From Actinomycetota bacterium (GTDB lineage Bacteria; Actinomycetota; Actinomycetes; S36-B12; FW305-bin1): a stretch of DNA of 64,000 bases. A program made the position numbers and the translations under genes. The stretch covers positions 1-64,000 of the forward strand of contig SCTR01000011.1 in assembly GCA_004297305.1 (NCBI GenBank), read 5' to 3'. Below are positions 38,650-47,100 of this stretch, piece after piece; within the stretch, counting starts at the first letter, position 1; each line of letters starts with the position of its first letter. The notes under the pieces were generated by a model. It did no database searches and was not told where the DNA came from. It saw only the letters and a list, made by a program, of their open reading frames with translations.

Positions 38650-39951
38650 CTACTCGGGCCGGCCGACCGCCGAAGCCGCCAGCAGGTCCGGCGGCGGCGC
38701 AGGATGGCGATAGACGCGCGCCGCGTTCCCGTAGCACACCTTTCTGATGGTCTCGGCCGGCAGGTGACTGAGTTCGTGGCGGACCATCTCCTGGCTGGCC
38801 GGCCAGGTCATGTCGAAATGGGGGTAGTCGGTTTCGACCATGACGCTGTCCTCGCCTATGACGTCGAGCATCCGGAATCCCGACGGGTCTTCGATCGACG
38901 TGAAGACGAAGTTCCGCTGCGCGACCTCCAGCGGGGTCGGCGCGTCGGCGTACCAGGTCTTGCCGATGGCGCCTGACTGGCGATGAGCGCGAATCAACCG
39001 CTCGAACGCCATCGGGACCCAGGAGATCCCCGCCTCGGACAGCGCGATGGTCAGGCCGGGGAAGCGGATCGGCACGCCGGAGTAGATCCAGTCGATCAGC
39101 GCCTTGATGCCGCTGATGGGGAACAGCGCGGTCGCGACCGACTCCGCTGACGAGGACGACGCCGCCGCGGTGGCGCCTGACGACCCGACGTGCAGGTTGA
39201 CGACGGTCCCGGTCTCCTCGCACGCGCGGAAGAACGGATCCCACACCCGGTCGTACACGTTCGGGAAGCCGAGTCCCTCGGGGTTCTCCGAGAAGGAGAC
39301 GGCCCGGAAGCCCCGCTCGGCGTTGCGGCGGATCTCCGTCGCGGCGATCTCGGGATCACGCAGCCAGGGCAATTGGCACGGGATGTAGCGGTCCGGCGCC
39401 GCCCCGCACCACTCGTCGATCATCCAGTCGTTGTAGGCCCGCAGACAGGCCAACCCGAGTTCGGCATCGGACATGGTCGAGAAGCGGGTGCCGGCGAAAC
39501 CCCAGACGATGGATCCGAAACACAGGCTCGCCCACACGCCCGTGGCATCCATGTCGGTGAGCCGCAAGGCGGAGTCGTACACCTGCGGACGGAACTCCGA
39601 ATAGTTGCACGCAATATTGCCCCACTCGGCCATCGGGCGGCCCGCCGAGCCGTTGGCCATCAGGATCGGCACCCGCCGACCGTCGATCACCCACCACGAG
39701 CCGCCGTCAGCGGCCTGCTCGACATACGGCGCGCGGTCGCGCAGCTGCGCCGGCAGGCGACCATCGAACAACGTCGCGGGTTCCAGGGCATGGTCGTCGA
39801 CCGAGATGATCGGACAGAAGAGTTCCTCGGGCTCAGGATCCGGCAGGAACGTCACCGGGTGGTCGCGGCCATGCTTGCGCACCATACGCAGGACGGCGTC
39901 GTCCAGGTCGAACCGGTCGGTCCCCGTCGTCGCTGTCCCTGTCGTCGTCAT
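38650..39951 (-). CDS. Amidohydrolase family (ACMSD-like) metal-dependent hydrolase
   Basis: A 433-residue TIM-barrel protein of the amidohydrolase-2 family. It has a DDHALEP metal-loop variant near residue 50, GTVVNLHVGSSG with a metal His, and the C-terminal metal Asp motif VMVETDYPHFDMTWP. The ATG at 39951 follows GGAGGGG. Relatives include decarboxylases and lactonases of aromatic breakdown. It is 64 nt downstream of the His-rich gene on the same strand. The substrate is unknown. Confidence 0.85.
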   Translation of the reverse strand: MTTTGTATTGTDRFDLDDAVLRMVRKHGRDHPVTFLPDPEPEELFCPIISVDDHALEPATLFDGRLPAQLRDRAPYVEQAADGGSWWVIDGRRVPILMANGSAGRPMAEWGNIACNYSEFRPQVYDSALRLTDMDATGVWASLCFGSIVWGFAGTRFSTMSDAELGLACLRAYNDWMIDEWCGAAPDRYIPCQLPWLRDPEIAATEIRRNAERGFRAVSFSENPEGLGFPNVYDRVWDPFFRACEETGTVVNLHVGSSGATAAASSSSAESVATALFPISGIKALIDWIYSGVPIRFPGLTIALSEAGISWVPMAFERLIRAHRQSGAIGKTWYADAPTPLEVAQRNFVFTSIEDPSGFRMLDVIGEDSVMVETDYPHFDMTWPASQEMVRHELSHLPAETIRKVCYGNAARVYRHPAPPPDLLAASAVGRPE

Positions 39952-40015
39952 GACCCCTCCGGTGGCTACTCGGGCTGCGGATCGCGGGAGGCGAGACCGC
40001 ATGACGCGGAAAGCC

Positions 40016-40597
40016 TCACGAGGAGGCGGTCACCTGGGCCTCGAACCGATCGAACTCGGCGACGACCTCGGGCACGACCGCAGCCACCGCGTCCCAGTCG
40101 ATCCGGGCAAGGCGGTCCGCCTCGACGACGACGGCGAGCATCGAGCGCAGCCGATGGTGCAGCAGCACCGGAACCTGTTCGGGAAACGGGCCGAGCGCGC
40201 ACTGGTCCCACCACACGATCGTGTGATGGCTCCCCGGATAGATGTAGTGGTAGTGCGGTTCCTCGTCGAACGCGTCGATACGCAGGTACTCCTCGGCGCT
40301 GTCGGCGTCGAACACGTGGATCGAGGGAGCCTGCAACTCCAGACCCTGCTGAAACTCCGGCCGGGTCCGCGCCAGCCATTCCGGGTCATGCCCGTAGGCC
40401 TGCTGCAACACCGCCGCGTTCAGCGCTCGGCGCTCGACGCCGAAGCGCAGTCCGCCGGCGTCGAAGAAACGGGTCGCCGCGGGATCGGGCGGGATCTTGA
40501 AGTCGAGCTCGTAGCTGGTGCCGACCCGGGGTGCAAGGGGCATGTCAGGATCCCAGTCGTAGGAACCACGCAACGTGACCGCCGGTAGGACGGTCAA
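40016..40597 (-). CDS. His-rich hypothetical protein paired with the amidohydrolase
   Basis: A 193-residue soluble protein, start probably TTG at 40597. A striking cluster EEPHYHYIYPGSHHTIVWW lies near residue 115, and further LLHHRLRS follows. The concentrated His residues could bind a metal. It precedes the amidohydrolase on the same strand by 64 nt, so the two likely work together. I do not recognise the family with confidence. Confidence 0.6.
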   Translation of the reverse strand: MTVLPAVTLRGSYDWDPDMPLAPRVGTSYELDFKIPPDPAATRFFDAGGLRFGVERRALNAAVLQQAYGHDPEWLARTRPEFQQGLELQAPSIHVFDADSAEEYLRIDAFDEEPHYHYIYPGSHHTIVWWDQCALGPFPEQVPVLLHHRLRSMLAVVVEADRLARIDWDAVAAVVPEVVAEFDRFEAQVTASS

Positions 40598-40688: not shown

Positions 40689-41726
40689 TCACTGCAGAGC
40701 TGGGAATCCCACGGCCGTCCCACGGAAGCTGACCGAGACCCGATCACCTGCTCGGCCGCTCCACCCTCCGCCGGTGCGGGCCTGAAGCTCCTGCGTGGTT
40801 CCGTGGACCTCGACCCGGACGAGGTGGGAATCACCGAAATACTCCACGCCGCGCACGCACGCGCTGCCCTGCTCGTCGTTGTCGACGAGTACCTGCTCGG
40901 GGCGGAGCATGATCTCGACCGGCCCGTTGCGCGGAGAATTCCGCAACGGAATGTCTCCGAACTGTGTCCGGGCCACGCCGTCGCACGCGACGGCGGGCAG
41001 CACCACGGTGCCACCGACGAGCGCCGCTGTCTGCAGATCGGTGGGCTGGTCGTAGACCTCGGCCGCCGACGCGACCTGAGTGAGGCGGCCGTCGACCATG
41101 ATCGCGAGGATGTCGGAGAACGACAACGCCTCGTGGTGGTCATGCGTGACGAACACCGCGGTAACCCCTTGGTCGCGCAGGATGCCGACGACCGCGCTTC
41201 GGGTCGAGGCGCGCAGATCGGTGTCGAGAGCGGAGAACGGCTCGTCGAGCAGCACCACGTCTGGCGACCTGGCCAGGGTACGGGCGAGCGCCACCCGCTG
41301 CTGCTGGCCGCCGGACAGCTCATGTGGCCAGCGCCGCAGATACGACGGATCCAGCGACACGGTCGCCAGCAGCTGTTCGGCCATACCGGCGTCACGCTCA
41401 GTTCGCCGCATGCCGAACTCGACGTTTGCCTGGACGGTGAGGTGCGGAAACAGGGAACCGTCCTGCGACACGTAGCCGATGCGGCGTCGCTGCGGAGGCA
41501 CCCACACTCCCGGTCCGGCGACCACGGTTTCGCCTATCGACACCGTCCCCGCGGTCGGTGTTTCGAACCCGGCAATCACCCGAAGCAGCGTGGACTTCCC
41601 GCAGCCGGACTTGCCGAGGACGGAGACGAGTAAGCCGGGTTCGATGGTCAGGTCGATGCCGTGGAGCACCTCGAGGTCACCGTACGCATGACGAACACCG
41701 ACGACGTGCACCGCATCGGAATTCAT
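40689..41726 (-). CDS. fbpC-like: Ferric-iron ABC transporter ATP-binding protein
   Basis: A 345-residue ABC ATPase. Walker A GKSGCGKST, signature LSGGQQQRVALARTLA and Walker B VVLLDEPFSALD are intact; a TOBE-type C-terminal domain (about 260-345) fits the CysA/FbpC/PotA group. It overlaps the permease stop as ATGA and forms an operon with the binding protein and the permease. Confidence 0.92.
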   Translation of the reverse strand: MNSDAVHVVGVRHAYGDLEVLHGIDLTIEPGLLVSVLGKSGCGKSTLLRVIAGFETPTAGTVSIGETVVAGPGVWVPPQRRRIGYVSQDGSLFPHLTVQANVEFGMRRTERDAGMAEQLLATVSLDPSYLRRWPHELSGGQQQRVALARTLARSPDVVLLDEPFSALDTDLRASTRSAVVGILRDQGVTAVFVTHDHHEALSFSDILAIMVDGRLTQVASAAEVYDQPTDLQTAALVGGTVVLPAVACDGVARTQFGDIPLRNSPRNGPVEIMLRPEQVLVDNDEQGSACVRGVEYFGDSHLVRVEVHGTTQELQARTGGGWSGRAGDRVSVSFRGTAVGFPALQ

Positions 41727-43240
41727 CGACGTCGCATCCTTCGGGACTGCTGCAGGATCAGGTACGTAAACGGCACGCTCAACAGCACCATGGCGGCGGC
41801 GAACGGAGCGGCGGCAGCGTAGTCAAGCTCGTCGCTGTAACTCCAGAACCGCGTTGCCAGAGTATTCACGCCGGCCGGCGCCAGCAGCAGGGTCGCTGTC
41901 AACTCGGTGATGACCGCGACGAAGACGAAGGCTGCGGCGCTGGCAAGGCCGGGAGACAGCAGCGGCAAGGCGATCCGACCGACCCGTCGCAGGTGGCTCG
42001 CCCCGAGGGACCGCGCAGCATCGTCGAACTCGGGACGAGCCTGGGCGATCGCCGGTCGCAGGCTGACGATGGCCCTCGGAAGGAAGAGGATGACGTAGCC
42101 GACGATCAGCAAGGCGATGGTCTGGTAGAGCGCGTCGAACCACCGCGCGCAGACGGTGACGAGCGCCAGGGCGACCACAACCCCCGGCAACGCGCTGGAG
42201 ACATACGTGCAGCGCTCGAGGATCGCCGTTAGCGCCGACCGGTGTCGCACCGCAAGCCAGGCCAGCGGCAGACCGACGAGCGTGGCGACGACCGCACCGG
42301 CGATGCCGAGCTCCAGGCTGGTCCGCAATGCCGGCAGGAGCTCGTCGGCGACGTCGGCTCCGTACGAGAGCCATCGGCTCACCGCGACGCCCGGGACGCC
42401 GATCGCCGCAATAAGGACTGCGGCAACGACTGCTGTGACGGGCCAACGCCAGGCCCGTAGCGCGACAGTTCGCTCCACGCGCGCAGCGCCGGAACCGATG
42501 CGCGAGTATCGAGCGCGCCCGCGCAACAGCGCCTCGAGCAGGAGCAGGCCCAGACAGAGGATGACCGATACCCCCGCGAGCATCGTCGCCGCAGAGCCGT
42601 TGAAGGACGACTGGTACTGCGTGAGGATCGCCACGGTGAACGTCTCGTAGCCGATCATCTGCAGGGCACCGAACTCTGCGAGCACGTGCAGGGCGACCAG
42701 CAGCGCACCGCCGAGAAGGGCCAGGCGCAGCTGTGGCAACGTCACGCGCAAGAAGACGCGAACCGGACCGAACCCGAGAGCAGCCGCCGCCTCCTCGAGG
42801 CCGGGGTCCAACCCGCGGATCGCGGCGGCCGCCGGCAGGTACACGAACGGGAAATAGGCGAGCGTCGTGATCAGCGCGGCTGCCGGCAAGCCTTCGAAGC
42901 CGGGCTGCAGCGAGGCCCACGCGTAACTCGTCACGAAAGCCGGGACGGCGAGCGGAGCCACGAGCAGGGCCGCCCACAGCCGCCTGGCCGGCACATCGGT
43001 GCGCTCGACGAGCCAGGCCGCTCCGAGGCCGACCAGTGAACAGCAGAGCGTCGTCACGGCGGTAAGGGTCACCGTGTTAACCAGGAGCGCACCGACGCGC
43101 TCCCGCAGGATCGACGACGCGATCTGCGTCCCGCCCAGGCTCAGCGTCTCGCCGACGATGAAAGCGATCGGGAGGAGGCCGACCGCTGCAACGCCTACGG
43201 CTGCAAGATAAAGCCAGCGTCCCCCGCCGCGACGGCGCAC
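41723..43240 (-). CDS. fbpB-like: Ferric-iron ABC transporter permease (fused pair)
   Basis: A 505-residue protein with about 12 helices made of two fused binding-protein-dependent permease domains. Each carries an EAA loop: EEAAAALGFGPVRVFLRVTLP and DDAARSLGASHLRRVGRIALP. This arrangement is typical of FbpB/SfuB iron permeases. GTG start at 43240; the exact start is uncertain. Translational coupling with the ATPase is by ATGA. Confidence 0.9.
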   Translation of the reverse strand: MRRRGGGRWLYLAAVGVAAVGLLPIAFIVGETLSLGGTQIASSILRERVGALLVNTVTLTAVTTLCCSLVGLGAAWLVERTDVPARRLWAALLVAPLAVPAFVTSYAWASLQPGFEGLPAAALITTLAYFPFVYLPAAAAIRGLDPGLEEAAAALGFGPVRVFLRVTLPQLRLALLGGALLVALHVLAEFGALQMIGYETFTVAILTQYQSSFNGSAATMLAGVSVILCLGLLLLEALLRGRARYSRIGSGAARVERTVALRAWRWPVTAVVAAVLIAAIGVPGVAVSRWLSYGADVADELLPALRTSLELGIAGAVVATLVGLPLAWLAVRHRSALTAILERCTYVSSALPGVVVALALVTVCARWFDALYQTIALLIVGYVILFLPRAIVSLRPAIAQARPEFDDAARSLGASHLRRVGRIALPLLSPGLASAAAFVFVAVITELTATLLLAPAGVNTLATRFWSYSDELDYAAAAPFAAAMVLLSVPFTYLILQQSRRMRRR

Positions 43241-43290: not shown

Positions 43291-44304
43291 TCAGATAAGG
43301 CCCTTATCGGTCATGAGCTTGATCACCGTGGGTCCGTTGAGCGTCGCCGGGTCGATCACCGGGGCGTCGAGCCCGGACAACGGCGGCAGGACGGGGTTCG
43401 ACGCCAGGCCATTGCCGACGACGTACTCCATCGCGTCGCTCTTCGCGAGAACTTCCTGGCCTCGCTTCCCGGTGACGTACGCGAGGAACTGCTGAGCCTT
43501 GTCGACTCGCGGGCTGCCGGCGATAACACCGCCGCCGGACACCGAAACGAAAGCGCCCGGATCCTTGCCACCGAAATAGTGGGGCTGGGTGTTGCGGCTG
43601 TTCTCCTGAGTCTTGGCCTGATCCCGGTACCAGTAGTAGCTGTAGATGACACCGCCATCGACTTCGCCCGCATTCACGCCCTGCATGGTCGTGATGTTGT
43701 TGGTGTACACCTTGGCGTTCGCTTTCATACCGTCCAGCCAGGCACTGGTCGCCGCCTGTCCCGACAGCTGAAGCATCGCACTGACGATCGCCTGGAAGTC
43801 AGCGCCGCCCGGAGCCGCGCCCCACCGACCACGCCACTCAGGTTTGGCCAGATCCATGAGTGACTTGGGAAGCTGGTCCGCGGACAGTTTGTCCTTGTTG
43901 TAGACGAATACCGTCGAGCGGGCCGCCACCGGAACCCACCGCTGCGACTTGGGCGTGAATTCGGCGGGCACCTGAGCGAGCGTCGCCGCGGGAATTTCGG
44001 CGAACAGGCCTGCCTGCTCGACGATGCCCATCGCTGGCGAGTTCTCCGTCAGGAAGACGTCCGCGCGGGAGTTCTTGCCTTCGGCGACAATTTGATTCGC
44101 GATCTCGAAATCCCGGCCGCTGCGCACGATGACCGGGATCCCGGTCTCCTGCGTGAATGCGTCGACCCAGGACTTCGTCAGTCCTTCGTGTTGGGCACTA
44201 TAGACGACCACGGTGTCCGAACCCACTTGCTCGCCGCTGCCGCATGCCGTCAGAGCAAGGCCCGCGGCGAGCGTCATCGCCGCGGCCAGAGCGCGCCGAA
44301 GCAT
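43291..44304 (-). CDS. fbpA-like: Ferric-iron-binding lipoprotein, FbpA/FutA type
   Basis: A 337-residue extracellular binding lipoprotein with lipobox ALTAC. The N-terminal lobe VVVYSAQHEGLTKSWVDAF and the paired iron-ligand Tyr in YSYYWYRD match FbpA/FutA ferric-binding proteins. The ATG at 44304 follows AGGAG. It is the first gene of a three-gene importer operon and is divergent from the fused synthetase; an iron box lies 81 nt upstream. Confidence 0.9.
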   Translation of the reverse strand: MLRRALAAAMTLAAGLALTACGSGEQVGSDTVVVYSAQHEGLTKSWVDAFTQETGIPVIVRSGRDFEIANQIVAEGKNSRADVFLTENSPAMGIVEQAGLFAEIPAATLAQVPAEFTPKSQRWVPVAARSTVFVYNKDKLSADQLPKSLMDLAKPEWRGRWGAAPGGADFQAIVSAMLQLSGQAATSAWLDGMKANAKVYTNNITTMQGVNAGEVDGGVIYSYYWYRDQAKTQENSRNTQPHYFGGKDPGAFVSVSGGGVIAGSPRVDKAQQFLAYVTGKRGQEVLAKSDAMEYVVGNGLASNPVLPPLSGLDAPVIDPATLNGPTVIKLMTDKGLI

Positions 44305-44378: not shown

Positions 44379-44407
44379 TTGGCGTTAGGTTAGCCTACCC
44401 GCACGAT
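44379..44407 (+). promoter_or_regulatory. Iron-box-controlled promoter between divergent operons
   Basis: TTAGGTTAGCCTACCCGCA at 44385-44403 agrees at about 15 of 19 positions with the IdeR/DtxR consensus, perfectly in the first half and degenerate in the second. On the plus strand it sits between TTGGCG (44379-44384) and CACGAT (44402-44407), a -35/-10 pair with 17-nt spacing, 30 nt before the fused synthetase start. Binding there by an iron-loaded repressor would block the gene, and perhaps also the divergent importer operon. Confidence 0.7.
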
Positions 44408-44436: not shown

Positions 44437-47100
44437 GTGGTGACGCCAGCATCACTGGTGGCGTTCGACAGGCCGGTTCTTCCTGCTGCGGAGCCCGACT
44501 TTGTCGCCGGCCTGCGCAGCTTTGGTGACCGCACAGCACTCGTCGCAGGCGACGTCCAGCTGACGTACCGCGAACTCGACGCAGCAGTCGACGACGCCGC
44601 GGCGCGTCTGGACGGCCCACGCCGACTCGTCGCCATCCTCGCCAGGCGGCGGATCGACGATGTCGTGCACTACCTCGGAGCGCTGCGCGCGGGATTGCCC
44701 GTCCTGCTCGTTCCCCGGTGTCGTCCCGACGCCGCACTCGCGCGCTACGCGCCCGACGTCATCGTCAGGGACGGGCAGATCGTCGCGGACACGCGGCCGG
44801 TGCTGGACCGCGATCTGCACAGCGACCTGGCCGTCCTGCTCAGCACCTCGGGGACGACGGGGAGTCCCCGGGTCGTCCGGCTCTCGCTGGCGAACCTGGA
44901 GTCGAACGCCGCCGCCGTCGTGGCGACCCTCGGACTCACCGACGCCGATCGGGCGGTGACGACGCTCGAGTTCACGTACTCGTACGGCCTGTCCGTCCTG
45001 CACTCGCACCTCGCGGCGGGGGCGGGCCTCGTGCTCACCGAGCTGTCCGTCACCGACAGCGCCTTCGAGGACGTGGTCCGCCACAGCGGCGCCACCACGA
45101 TGGCCGCGGTGCCGTACACCTTCGACCTGCTCGACCGGCACGGCACGCAGGTACTCGCGGCGCCGTCACTGCGCCAGGTGACCTGTGCGGGCGGACGCCT
45201 GCCAGCGCCCACCGCGCGACGGTACGCCGAGCTCGGGCGCCGGCACGGCTTCGATCTGGTCCTGATGTACGGCGCCACCGAAGCGACCGCGCGGATGGCG
45301 GTGCTCCCGCCGCACCTCACGGCGTCGAACCCCGGCACGGTCGGTCGCGCCATCCCCGGGGGCGCGTTTCGACTCGACGACGTCGGCGACGACGGTGTGG
45401 GAGACCTCGTCTACTCCGGGCCGAACCTGATGCTCGGCTACGCCGAGCATCCGGCGGATCTGGCCCGCGGTCGCGACCTGACCGAATGGCGGACCGGGGA
45501 TCGAGCCCGGCTCACCGTCGAGGGCCTCCTCGAGATCGTGGGCCGACGCGCGCAGATCACCAAGGTCCACGGGCTGCGAGTCGACCTGGCCGACGTCGAT
45601 CGCGCCCTGGAGGAGGCCGGCCTCGAAGGTGTATCGGTTGCGCTCGACGACGCCCTCGGGGTCGCGGTGGTCGGCGTCGCGGCTCCGGTGGCGACCGCCG
45701 TCGCCTCGGCGAGCACCGGACTCCCGCCCGCGTCCCTTCGGGTCGCCGTGCTCCCCGCTCTCCCGCGTCTGGACAACGGCAAGCTCGACCGCACGGCCAC
45801 GACCCGAGCCGTGCTCGCGGCGGACGTCGCCAGGCCTGCCCCGGAGACGCCCAGTGAGGAGCAGCTGCGCCGCAGGTACGAGGCGCTGATCGGTGTGCCG
45901 GTCCGGGCGGACCAGTCGTTCGCCGACGTGGGCGGCGACTCACTGGCCTACGTCGCGGTATCGGTCGCCGTCGAGGAAACCCTGGGCCACCTGCCGCGGG
46001 ATTGGCACCGTACGTCGGTCACCGACCTGGCCGCCGCGCTGCCGCCCGGCAAGCCGTCCGCGGCACCGACGCGATTGACACGGCAGGTGGAGACGAGCGT
46101 GGTGGTGCGCGCGCTCGCCATCCTCGTCGTGGTCGCCTCGCACGTCGGGATGGTCGATATTCGCGGCGGCGCCCATCTGCTGCTCGCGCTGGTGGGGTTC
46201 AACCTTGCACGCTTCCACCTCAGCGTCGCCGATCCGGCGTTGCGGCTGCGCCGGATGCTGCGCAGTACCGGCGAGATCCTCGTCCCGTCGTTCGTGCTGC
46301 TGGCAGCGCTCGCGCTGAGCCCCTTCTACGAGTGGTACGTGCTCGGGGCGACGTCCTGGGTGATCCCGACGACCGAGGCCCCGGAGTGGCGCTTCTGGTT
46401 CGTCGAGGCATTGGTGTGGGTCCTGCCACTGGTCGCCGTCGTGCTGCGGATCCCCTGGGTGGAGTCGCTACGCCGCGGCTCGCCGTGGCTGCTGCCGGCG
46501 GCCGCGACCTGCGCGGTCTGGGTGGCGTCCCAGCACCTGCTCCCCGACGCCCGTCCGGCGTCGCTGTTCTCCCCCCTCGCCGCGGCGTGGGTCGTGCTCC
46601 TGGGCTGGACCGCGGCGGAGGCGCACACCCGTCGCCTGAAGCTGGCGACGTCGCTGCTGGTCGTGGTCACCGTCGTGCCGTCGTTCGACGCGAGCCGCCA
46701 GTGGGTGATCCCGTTGGGACTGCTGGCGATCCTCTGGTTGCCCTCACTGCGGCTGCCGTCGGCACTCGTGCCGCCGATCCTGCGGGTCGCCCAGGCTTCG
46801 CTCTACATCTATCTCGTCCACTGGCTCGTGCTGGGCGTCCTCGACTACGGCTGGACGGCGCTGATCGTCTCCCTCGCCGCGGGCATCGTGACGTTCCACG
46901 CGGTACGCCGGCTACAGCCGGGGGTGCTCGGAATGATCACTGGCGCAGTCAAGGCCGGTCGCCGTTACCTGTCCCGGCGGGCCGCTCCCCTTTCTGCGGT
47001 TACGCCGAAGCTGCCTGCGGTTCCAGCCCGGCGTGCACGTCCAGAAGCTGATCGAGGCCAGCGAACTCCAGTGCCCGGCGCGGGATCCGCCGCACGTTGA
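44437..47100 (+). CDS. Fused adenylation-carrier-acyltransferase membrane protein
   Basis: An 887-residue single polypeptide. Residues 1-460 are an AMP-forming adenylation domain with LSTSGTTGSPRVVRLS, YGATEATARM, TGDRARL and NGKLDR (A3, A5, A7 and A10). Residues 470-535 are a carrier domain; DVGGDSLAY places the phosphopantetheine Ser near 500. From about 550 to 840 there are some ten helices with acyltransferase-3-like features (RALAILVVVASHVG, SLYIYLVHWLVL). The final 45 residues are basic, low complexity and antisense to a STAS gene. It could activate an acid, load it on the carrier and pass it to an acceptor across the membrane, as DltA/C/B do. The A4 motif lacks the Asp of amino-acid-activating domains. 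GTG 44437 follows GGGAGG. Confidence 0.85.
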   Translation: MVTPASLVAFDRPVLPAAEPDFVAGLRSFGDRTALVAGDVQLTYRELDAAVDDAAARLDGPRRLVAILARRRIDDVVHYLGALRAGLPVLLVPRCRPDAALARYAPDVIVRDGQIVADTRPVLDRDLHSDLAVLLSTSGTTGSPRVVRLSLANLESNAAAVVATLGLTDADRAVTTLEFTYSYGLSVLHSHLAAGAGLVLTELSVTDSAFEDVVRHSGATTMAAVPYTFDLLDRHGTQVLAAPSLRQVTCAGGRLPAPTARRYAELGRRHGFDLVLMYGATEATARMAVLPPHLTASNPGTVGRAIPGGAFRLDDVGDDGVGDLVYSGPNLMLGYAEHPADLARGRDLTEWRTGDRARLTVEGLLEIVGRRAQITKVHGLRVDLADVDRALEEAGLEGVSVALDDALGVAVVGVAAPVATAVASASTGLPPASLRVAVLPALPRLDNGKLDRTATTRAVLAADVARPAPETPSEEQLRRRYEALIGVPVRADQSFADVGGDSLAYVAVSVAVEETLGHLPRDWHRTSVTDLAAALPPGKPSAAPTRLTRQVETSVVVRALAILVVVASHVGMVDIRGGAHLLLALVGFNLARFHLSVADPALRLRRMLRSTGEILVPSFVLLAALALSPFYEWYVLGATSWVIPTTEAPEWRFWFVEALVWVLPLVAVVLRIPWVESLRRGSPWLLPAAATCAVWVASQHLLPDARPASLFSPLAAAWVVLLGWTAAEAHTRRLKLATSLLVVVTVVPSFDASRQWVIPLGLLAILWLPSLRLPSALVPPILRVAQASLYIYLVHWLVLGVLDYGWTALIVSLAAGIVTFHAVRRLQPGVLGMITGAVKAGRRYLSRRAAPLSAVTPKLPAVPARRARPEADRGQRTPVPGAGSAAR

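Follow-up and report, generated by a model that had tools for sequence, protein, structure and literature searches.

The D-alanylation of teichoic acids by DltA-DltC-DltB(-DltD) brings together cytosolic adenylation, a carrier, a membrane acyltransferase and an extracytoplasmic acceptor. In Vibrio, AlmE-AlmF-AlmG glycylates lipid A using an A domain, a carrier and a membrane-associated acyltransferase directed at an envelope target. The epsilon-poly-L-lysine synthetase Pls carries an A domain, a carrier and a multi-pass membrane region in one polypeptide. Ferric iron importers of the SfuABC, FbpABC and HitABC type form another described group, and we know of none that is paired with an acyl-transfer enzyme. 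The bacterial acyltransferase-3 (AT3) proteins have been described as AT3-only proteins, AT3-SGNH fusions or alanine-racemase fusions that use acyl-CoA (PMC9833829, PMC9558356). Here we analyze a locus in which an adenylation domain, a carrier domain and an AT3 domain are joined in one chain beside a ferric importer.

The window, the whole 64,000-nucleotide stretch of DNA that was analyzed, contains at 44437-47100 on the + strand a gene for an 887-aa protein with a GTG start and the sequence AGGGAGG just 5′ of it. The product is predicted to be a membrane protein that activates and transfers an acyl group, and we refer to it as the A-T-AT3 enzyme. It comprises, all on the + strand, an adenylation (ANL) domain (44479-45816, residues ~15-460), a carrier domain of the peptidyl/acyl type (PP-binding; 45850-46056, residues ~472-540) and an acyltransferase-3/TmAT membrane domain (46075-46974, residues ~547-846). 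The open reading frame is real and its architecture is not due to chance, because more than 50 full-length homologues are found at 33-46% identity.

The first two domains are well defined in the window protein. In Pfam the A domain matches AMP-binding (PF00501) with an E value of 1.6e-40 and 139.6 bits against a cut-off of 29.9, and structure comparison yields an ANL fold with Z of about 35 against many ANL structures, the A domain of Pls among them. Its catalytic motifs are kept, including the P-loop STSGxTGxPK (S136-S150), E282 of the TE motif, D355 of the GD motif and G448-K449 of A10; the window protein has Arg145 in place of the P-loop Lys. The carrier region scores 24.6 bits for PP-binding (PF00550; cut-off 20.8) when scanned alone and 20.7 bits, just under the cut-off, when the whole window protein is scanned. 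The attachment Ser of the carrier, S502 (45940-45942) in the motif GGDSL, is the same in all 32 actinobacterial and all 12 cross-phylum rows. This conservation of catalytic residues argues strongly that the 887-aa protein would carry out activation, loading and trans-membrane transfer.

The membrane domain required further evidence. Since the window member scores only 17-18 bits for Acyl_transf_3 (PF01757, CL0316), below the Pfam cut-off of 31, the AT3 identity was tested using homologues, motifs and fold. Across 32 full-length homologues, Pfam detects AMP-binding in 32/32, PP-binding in 28/32 and Acyl_transf_3 in 28-30/32 (best E 1e-15). The signature motifs of AT3 proteins, namely R-X10-H, SxxxY and a Gly in TMH6, were taken from PMC9833829, PMC7448272 and PMC12423673. 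We found R-X10-H in TMH1 as R558 (46108-46110) and H569 (46141-46143), invariant in all 32 actinobacterial and all 12 cross-phylum rows, while SxxxY in TMH9 (S788/Y792) and the TMH6 Gly (G723) are invariant in 32/32 actinobacterial rows. An AlphaFold2 model of the C-terminal domain (pLDDT 91.2, pTM 0.88) aligns in VIA-align with the human transmembrane acyltransferase HGSNAT at Z 14.4 over 252/301 residues and with GWT1 at Z 9.9, the next structure being at Z 6.4. Foldseek, queried with the membrane domain by itself, returned no significant match, and HGSNAT and GWT1 appeared only by VIA-align. The agreement of motif and fold, despite the sub-cut-off Pfam score, supports a predicted 10-TMH TmAT fold for this domain. 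The TmAT superfamily, which includes HGSNAT together with OafA/OafB, OatA and SucT, shares with the A-T-AT3 enzyme the fold, R-X10-H, SxxxY and the TMH6 Gly; however, the described bacterial AT3 proteins are without the fused A and carrier domains that are both present here.

The original prediction for this locus, an adenylation-carrier-AT3 logic within a single polypeptide, is thus borne out by domains, motifs and fold. It had proposed a transferase family other than that of DltB, and the domain is indeed TmAT and not MBOAT; it had named as points to be checked whether the membrane region matches acyltransferase-3, which by fold it does (HGSNAT, Z 14.4), and whether the carrier lacks the Ser and fold, and here S502 is present and invariant and PP-binding exceeds its cut-off when scanned alone. 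The A-T-AT3 enzyme therefore follows a Dlt/Alm-like logic without being a Dlt system. Dlt consists of at least three separate proteins, whereas the A-T-AT3 enzyme is a single chain; DltB is an MBOAT protein, whereas the membrane domain here is AT3/TmAT by motif and fold; DltA recognizes D-Ala with an Asp (D197) that is replaced here by Ser or Cys; and Dlt is without the iron link described below. Pls differs in its membrane part, its tandem C-terminal domains, its activation of Lys and its peptide product. The Alm system, of which AlmE is mentioned in PMC11253843, consists of separate proteins with an amino-acid donor, another transferase family and no iron link.

Known AT3 enzymes take their acyl group from acyl-CoA rather than from ACP (PMC9558356), so a hand-over from the fused carrier to the AT3 domain would be new. 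We infer that such a direct hand-over takes place. It appears very unlikely that the A and carrier domains do no more than produce acyl-CoA or control its supply, with the AT3 domain using CoA thioesters and the carrier left as a relic or docking element. Such a scheme would agree with the use of acyl-CoA by known AT3 proteins (PMC9558356), with the presence of R-X10-H and with an RxxR in TMH3 of the window protein (R603/R606/R609) that resembles the residues contacting the CoA 3′-phosphate in OafB, but the register of this RxxR is not conserved and it is missing from most alphaproteobacterial members, the carrier Ser is invariant, and relatives encode an additional phosphopantetheinyl transferase next to the enzyme gene. 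A loss of the CoA-contacting RxxR across the whole A-T-AT3 family was also considered and was dropped, since the window protein and many relatives retain it.

The phosphopantetheinyl transferase genes are of the AcpS type and lie directly downstream of the enzyme in 5 relatives from the same order, all 5 of which have at least one further AcpS-type copy elsewhere. This second gene adjoining the enzyme argues that the carrier is really loaded, and we regard the enzyme-paired genes as candidates for dedicated carrier-activating enzymes. Short genes of this kind are found at L077:5559-6089, L079:9288-9659 and L081:6896-7318. The source genome of the window has one AcpS-type copy, elsewhere in the genome.

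What acid might be activated can be approached through the adenylation pocket. In NRPS A domains Asp235 (GrsA numbering) holds the alpha-amino group. The A-T-AT3 enzyme of the window has Ser182 at this A4 position, 31/32 relatives have Cys and the cross-phylum members have Ser or Cys, so that the missing A4 Asp noted originally holds for the family, and the A domain departs at this position from NRPS A domains for alpha-amino acids. An LgrA-based alignment had instead placed Gly184 at position 235; this assignment was set aside since an ungapped alignment with VinN places residue 182 there. With the family consensus as query, VinN is the A domain's nearest relative of solved structure, and its R331 lies in the pocket loop for the carboxylate-bearing substrate (PMC11253843). 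R286 of the window protein aligns with R331 and is conserved without exception in the 32 actinobacterial and 12 cross-phylum rows. An Arg at position 331 is common to the A-T-AT3 enzyme and to VinN and other stand-alone acid:ACP ligases, although VinN has Asp230, activates 3-methylaspartate for a polyketide and works without a membrane transferase.

An aryl acid had been suggested as one possible donor. The Asn235 of DhbE-like aryl-acid A domains is replaced by Ser or Cys, 2,3-DHB dehydrogenase (TIGR04316) was found over its cut-off in 0/25 enzyme-carrying genomes, and salicylate synthase (TIGR03494) was found in 1/25. We therefore reject an aryl-acid donor for most enzyme-carrying genomes because the DHB and salicylate genes are absent, and the invariant pocket Arg disfavors it as well. 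A long fatty acid is not favored either, given the predicted polar pocket. The donor is probably a small, polar, carboxylate-bearing acid without an alpha-amino group, and our best guess would be a housekeeping di- or hydroxy-carboxylate. Acid specificity is the weakest step in our explanation, being read from one pocket Arg and an alignment.

Full-length homologues are found in Arthrobacter, Kocuria, Actinomadura, Streptomyces, Micromonospora, Janibacter, Kribbella and others, in 8 sampled genomes from other classes of the Actinomycetota phylum, and in the Alphaproteobacteria Rhizobium, Sinorhizobium, Leisingera and Rhodobacter. Within the class, the AT3 domain of the A-T-AT3 enzyme was detected in 65/395 genomes (~16%), and all 65 matches sit in open frames of at least 837 aa. 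The adenylation, carrier and AT3 residues are kept across both phyla. We found no description of the architecture or of its cassette in the open-access literature, and within that literature the original statement that no system of this form had been described still stands. The A-T-AT3 architecture is an undescribed family, the members of which are annotated only as 'AMP-binding protein'.

The enzyme shares a divergent promoter with an importer of the SfuABC/FbpABC type. All on the - strand, the importer genes encode a ferric-iron-binding lipoprotein of the SfuA/YfuA/HitA/FbpA type (43291-44304; SBP_bac_6 in Pfam), a fused-repeat permease (41723-43240; BPD_transp_1) and an ATPase (40689-41726; ABC_tran and TOBE_2, with a ferric ABC ATPase among the NCBIfam matches), the last two being conserved neighbors. 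In phmmer the binding protein matches solved SfuA, YfuA and a ferric-iron ABC binding protein with E values of 1e-118 to 1e-121, and the importer is of the same type as SfuABC, FbpABC and HitABC. Following the ATPase gene on the same strand, the window also contains an amidohydrolase gene and a DUF7700 gene (38650-40597), which are absent from the other loci.

The association of enzyme and importer extends well beyond the window. In a species scan, the importer adjoins the enzyme in 36/50 loci. The arrangement varies among them, with divergent, enzyme-first, importer-first and split loci making up at least four gene orders. Using a 395-genome class sample, we found the binding protein in 65/65 genomes that have the enzyme and in 52/330 of those that do not (p 2e-42, a value that ignores phylogeny); the binding-protein criterion is family-level similarity, and some matches need not be ferric importers. 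Counted by genus, the binding protein is present in 25/25 with the enzyme vs 29/113 without it (p 8e-13, likewise ignoring phylogeny). That the two have come together repeatedly, in varying gene orders, supports the link independently of these phylogeny-blind p-values. Within the class sample, the binding protein lies within 10 kb of the enzyme in 49/65 genomes, and the enzyme gene is apart from the importer in the other 16. Among the Alphaproteobacteria, Pararhizobium sp. A13 has a homologue divergent from an Fe3+ ABC importer; in most other alphaproteobacterial loci inspected the importer is not adjacent. Clustering of the flanking genes revealed as recurring widely only the three ABC genes, plus the AcpS-type gene in the 5 same-order genomes.

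It could be supposed that the enzyme shares no more than its regulation with the importer and belongs, outside iron capture, to an iron-sparing or envelope-remodelling response acting on wall charge or lipid. We find this quite improbable: envelope remodelling is common among AT3 proteins (PMC9558356) and the gene lies away from the importer in 16/65 class genomes, yet dependence on the importer gene runs one way (65/65 vs 52/330) and the association was re-formed repeatedly, with different gene orders and across phyla. The neighbors of unlinked copies are mutually unrelated and include a P-type ATPase, SodC, a peptidase and GDPD. A heavy-metal P-type ATPase adjoins the unlinked copy in Smaragdicoccus (L029:7521-9935) and a Cu/Zn superoxide dismutase that in Actinophytocola (L044:12530-13480), hinting at wider links to metal stress.

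Regulation of the locus by iron is predicted from its promoter. A predicted DtxR/IdeR-type iron box, TTAGGTTAGCCTACCCGCA (44385-44403, unstranded), matches 16/19 positions of the consensus and lies in the divergent promoter. No other DtxR/IdeR site in the 64 kb scores as high; the best one that does not overlap it reaches 12/19. When whole loci of 12-23 kb were scanned, the enzyme promoter held the locus-best box in 37/47 other loci, and in 7/47 more the best box lies 5′ of the binding protein, these being loci where the enzyme gene stands late in the importer operon. In all, 44/47 loci have their best box at the promoter of the cassette. The three exceptions are a tie, a contig starting inside the gene, and a Roseateles locus that has the A domain only and serves as a negative control. 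The enzyme and importer thus appear to be under DtxR/IdeR iron control, as judged from these predicted sites. The original prediction had called the gene iron-linked, and with the importer next door, the predicted box and the co-occurrence (65/65 vs 52/330) this link goes well beyond proximity.

We consider it rather likely that the A-T-AT3 enzyme is an iron-starvation-induced acylation pathway in a single polypeptide that serves the SfuABC/FbpABC-type ferric importer. Upon iron starvation, DtxR/IdeR would leave its box, allowing both the enzyme and the importer to be made. The cytosolic A domain would adenylate a small polar carboxylic acid, which would be passed to the phosphopantetheine arm of the fused carrier domain, and the arm would present the acyl thioester to the AT3/TmAT domain. 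Via R558/H569, the AT3 domain would then acylate an acceptor at the outer surface of the cytoplasmic membrane; this acceptor could be a wall or periplasmic glycan, a lipid or a small exported molecule. The acylated acceptor would bind Fe3+ or keep it soluble beside the binding protein, from which it would enter the importer. The product would accordingly be a ferric ligand, and for the acid and the acceptor we can offer guesses. Mycobacterial SucT places succinyl groups onto wall arabinan (PMC10503756), a precedent for dicarboxylates going onto actinobacterial envelope polymers.

A more specific proposal is put forward tentatively, at somewhat less than an even chance: that this is a novel type of iron-acquisition system which is dedicated to an SfuABC-type importer and serves it through a ferric trap at the surface or in the periplasm, or else through a one-enzyme siderophore, and that the enzyme is also the first AT3 fed by a fused carrier instead of by acyl-CoA. 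The siderophore form taken by itself, with a small primary metabolite as acceptor and as product a diffusible weak ferric chelator whose iron is passed to the binding protein, is in our judgment unlikely. It would agree with the strict control predicted from the iron box and with the reliance on the ferric importer, and also with a cassette that has no other conserved biosynthetic gene, from which it follows that the acid and the acceptor must be common metabolites. However, SfuA/FbpA-type proteins bind Fe3+ and not siderophores, and a TonB receptor or siderophore reductase is absent beside the iron-linked alphaproteobacterial copy. Additionally, the described AT3/TmAT enzymes acylate mostly carbohydrates and envelope molecules (PMC9558356).

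For siderophore-free Sfu/Fbp importers it has been an open question what offers insoluble Fe3+ to the binding protein. An acylating enzyme encoded together with the importer offers a direct and testable answer, in a cassette that is widespread in Actinomycetota and found in some rhizobia. In addition, the protein joins a carrier domain to a superfamily, AT3/TmAT, in which the known members take acyl-CoA as donor, and it offers a compact one-protein model for the movement of acyl groups across a membrane. Because its members are annotated only as 'AMP-binding protein', an apparently iron-regulated pathway has been hidden in many genomes. Together, these features suggest an undescribed one-enzyme means of aiding bacterial iron capture.

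Several further members of the family differ in their genomic setting. The enzyme is plasmid-borne in Rhodococcus, Mycolicibacterium, Pseudarthrobacter and Pararhizobium (L134, L135, L137, L136, L142), often together with the ferric importer, and plasmid-borne copies occur with genes annotated 'iron ABC transporter'. Carriage on plasmids suggests that the enzyme-importer cassette may be mobile. In Roseateles aquatilis (L066:9168-14406), an exopolysaccharide cluster that also encodes DegT and a flippase includes an A-domain-only cousin (42% identity), flanked by an SDR gene on one side and by LuxE and LuxC-like genes on the other; we considered this neighborhood as a clue to the acid, which it does not reveal. 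In Rhizobium bangladeshense (L145:5983-13636) and R. etli CIAT 652 (L138:6956-14713), a large AAA/adenylate-cyclase-like gene comes after the family member and more genes follow, those in R. bangladeshense being annotated YcaO and TfuA.
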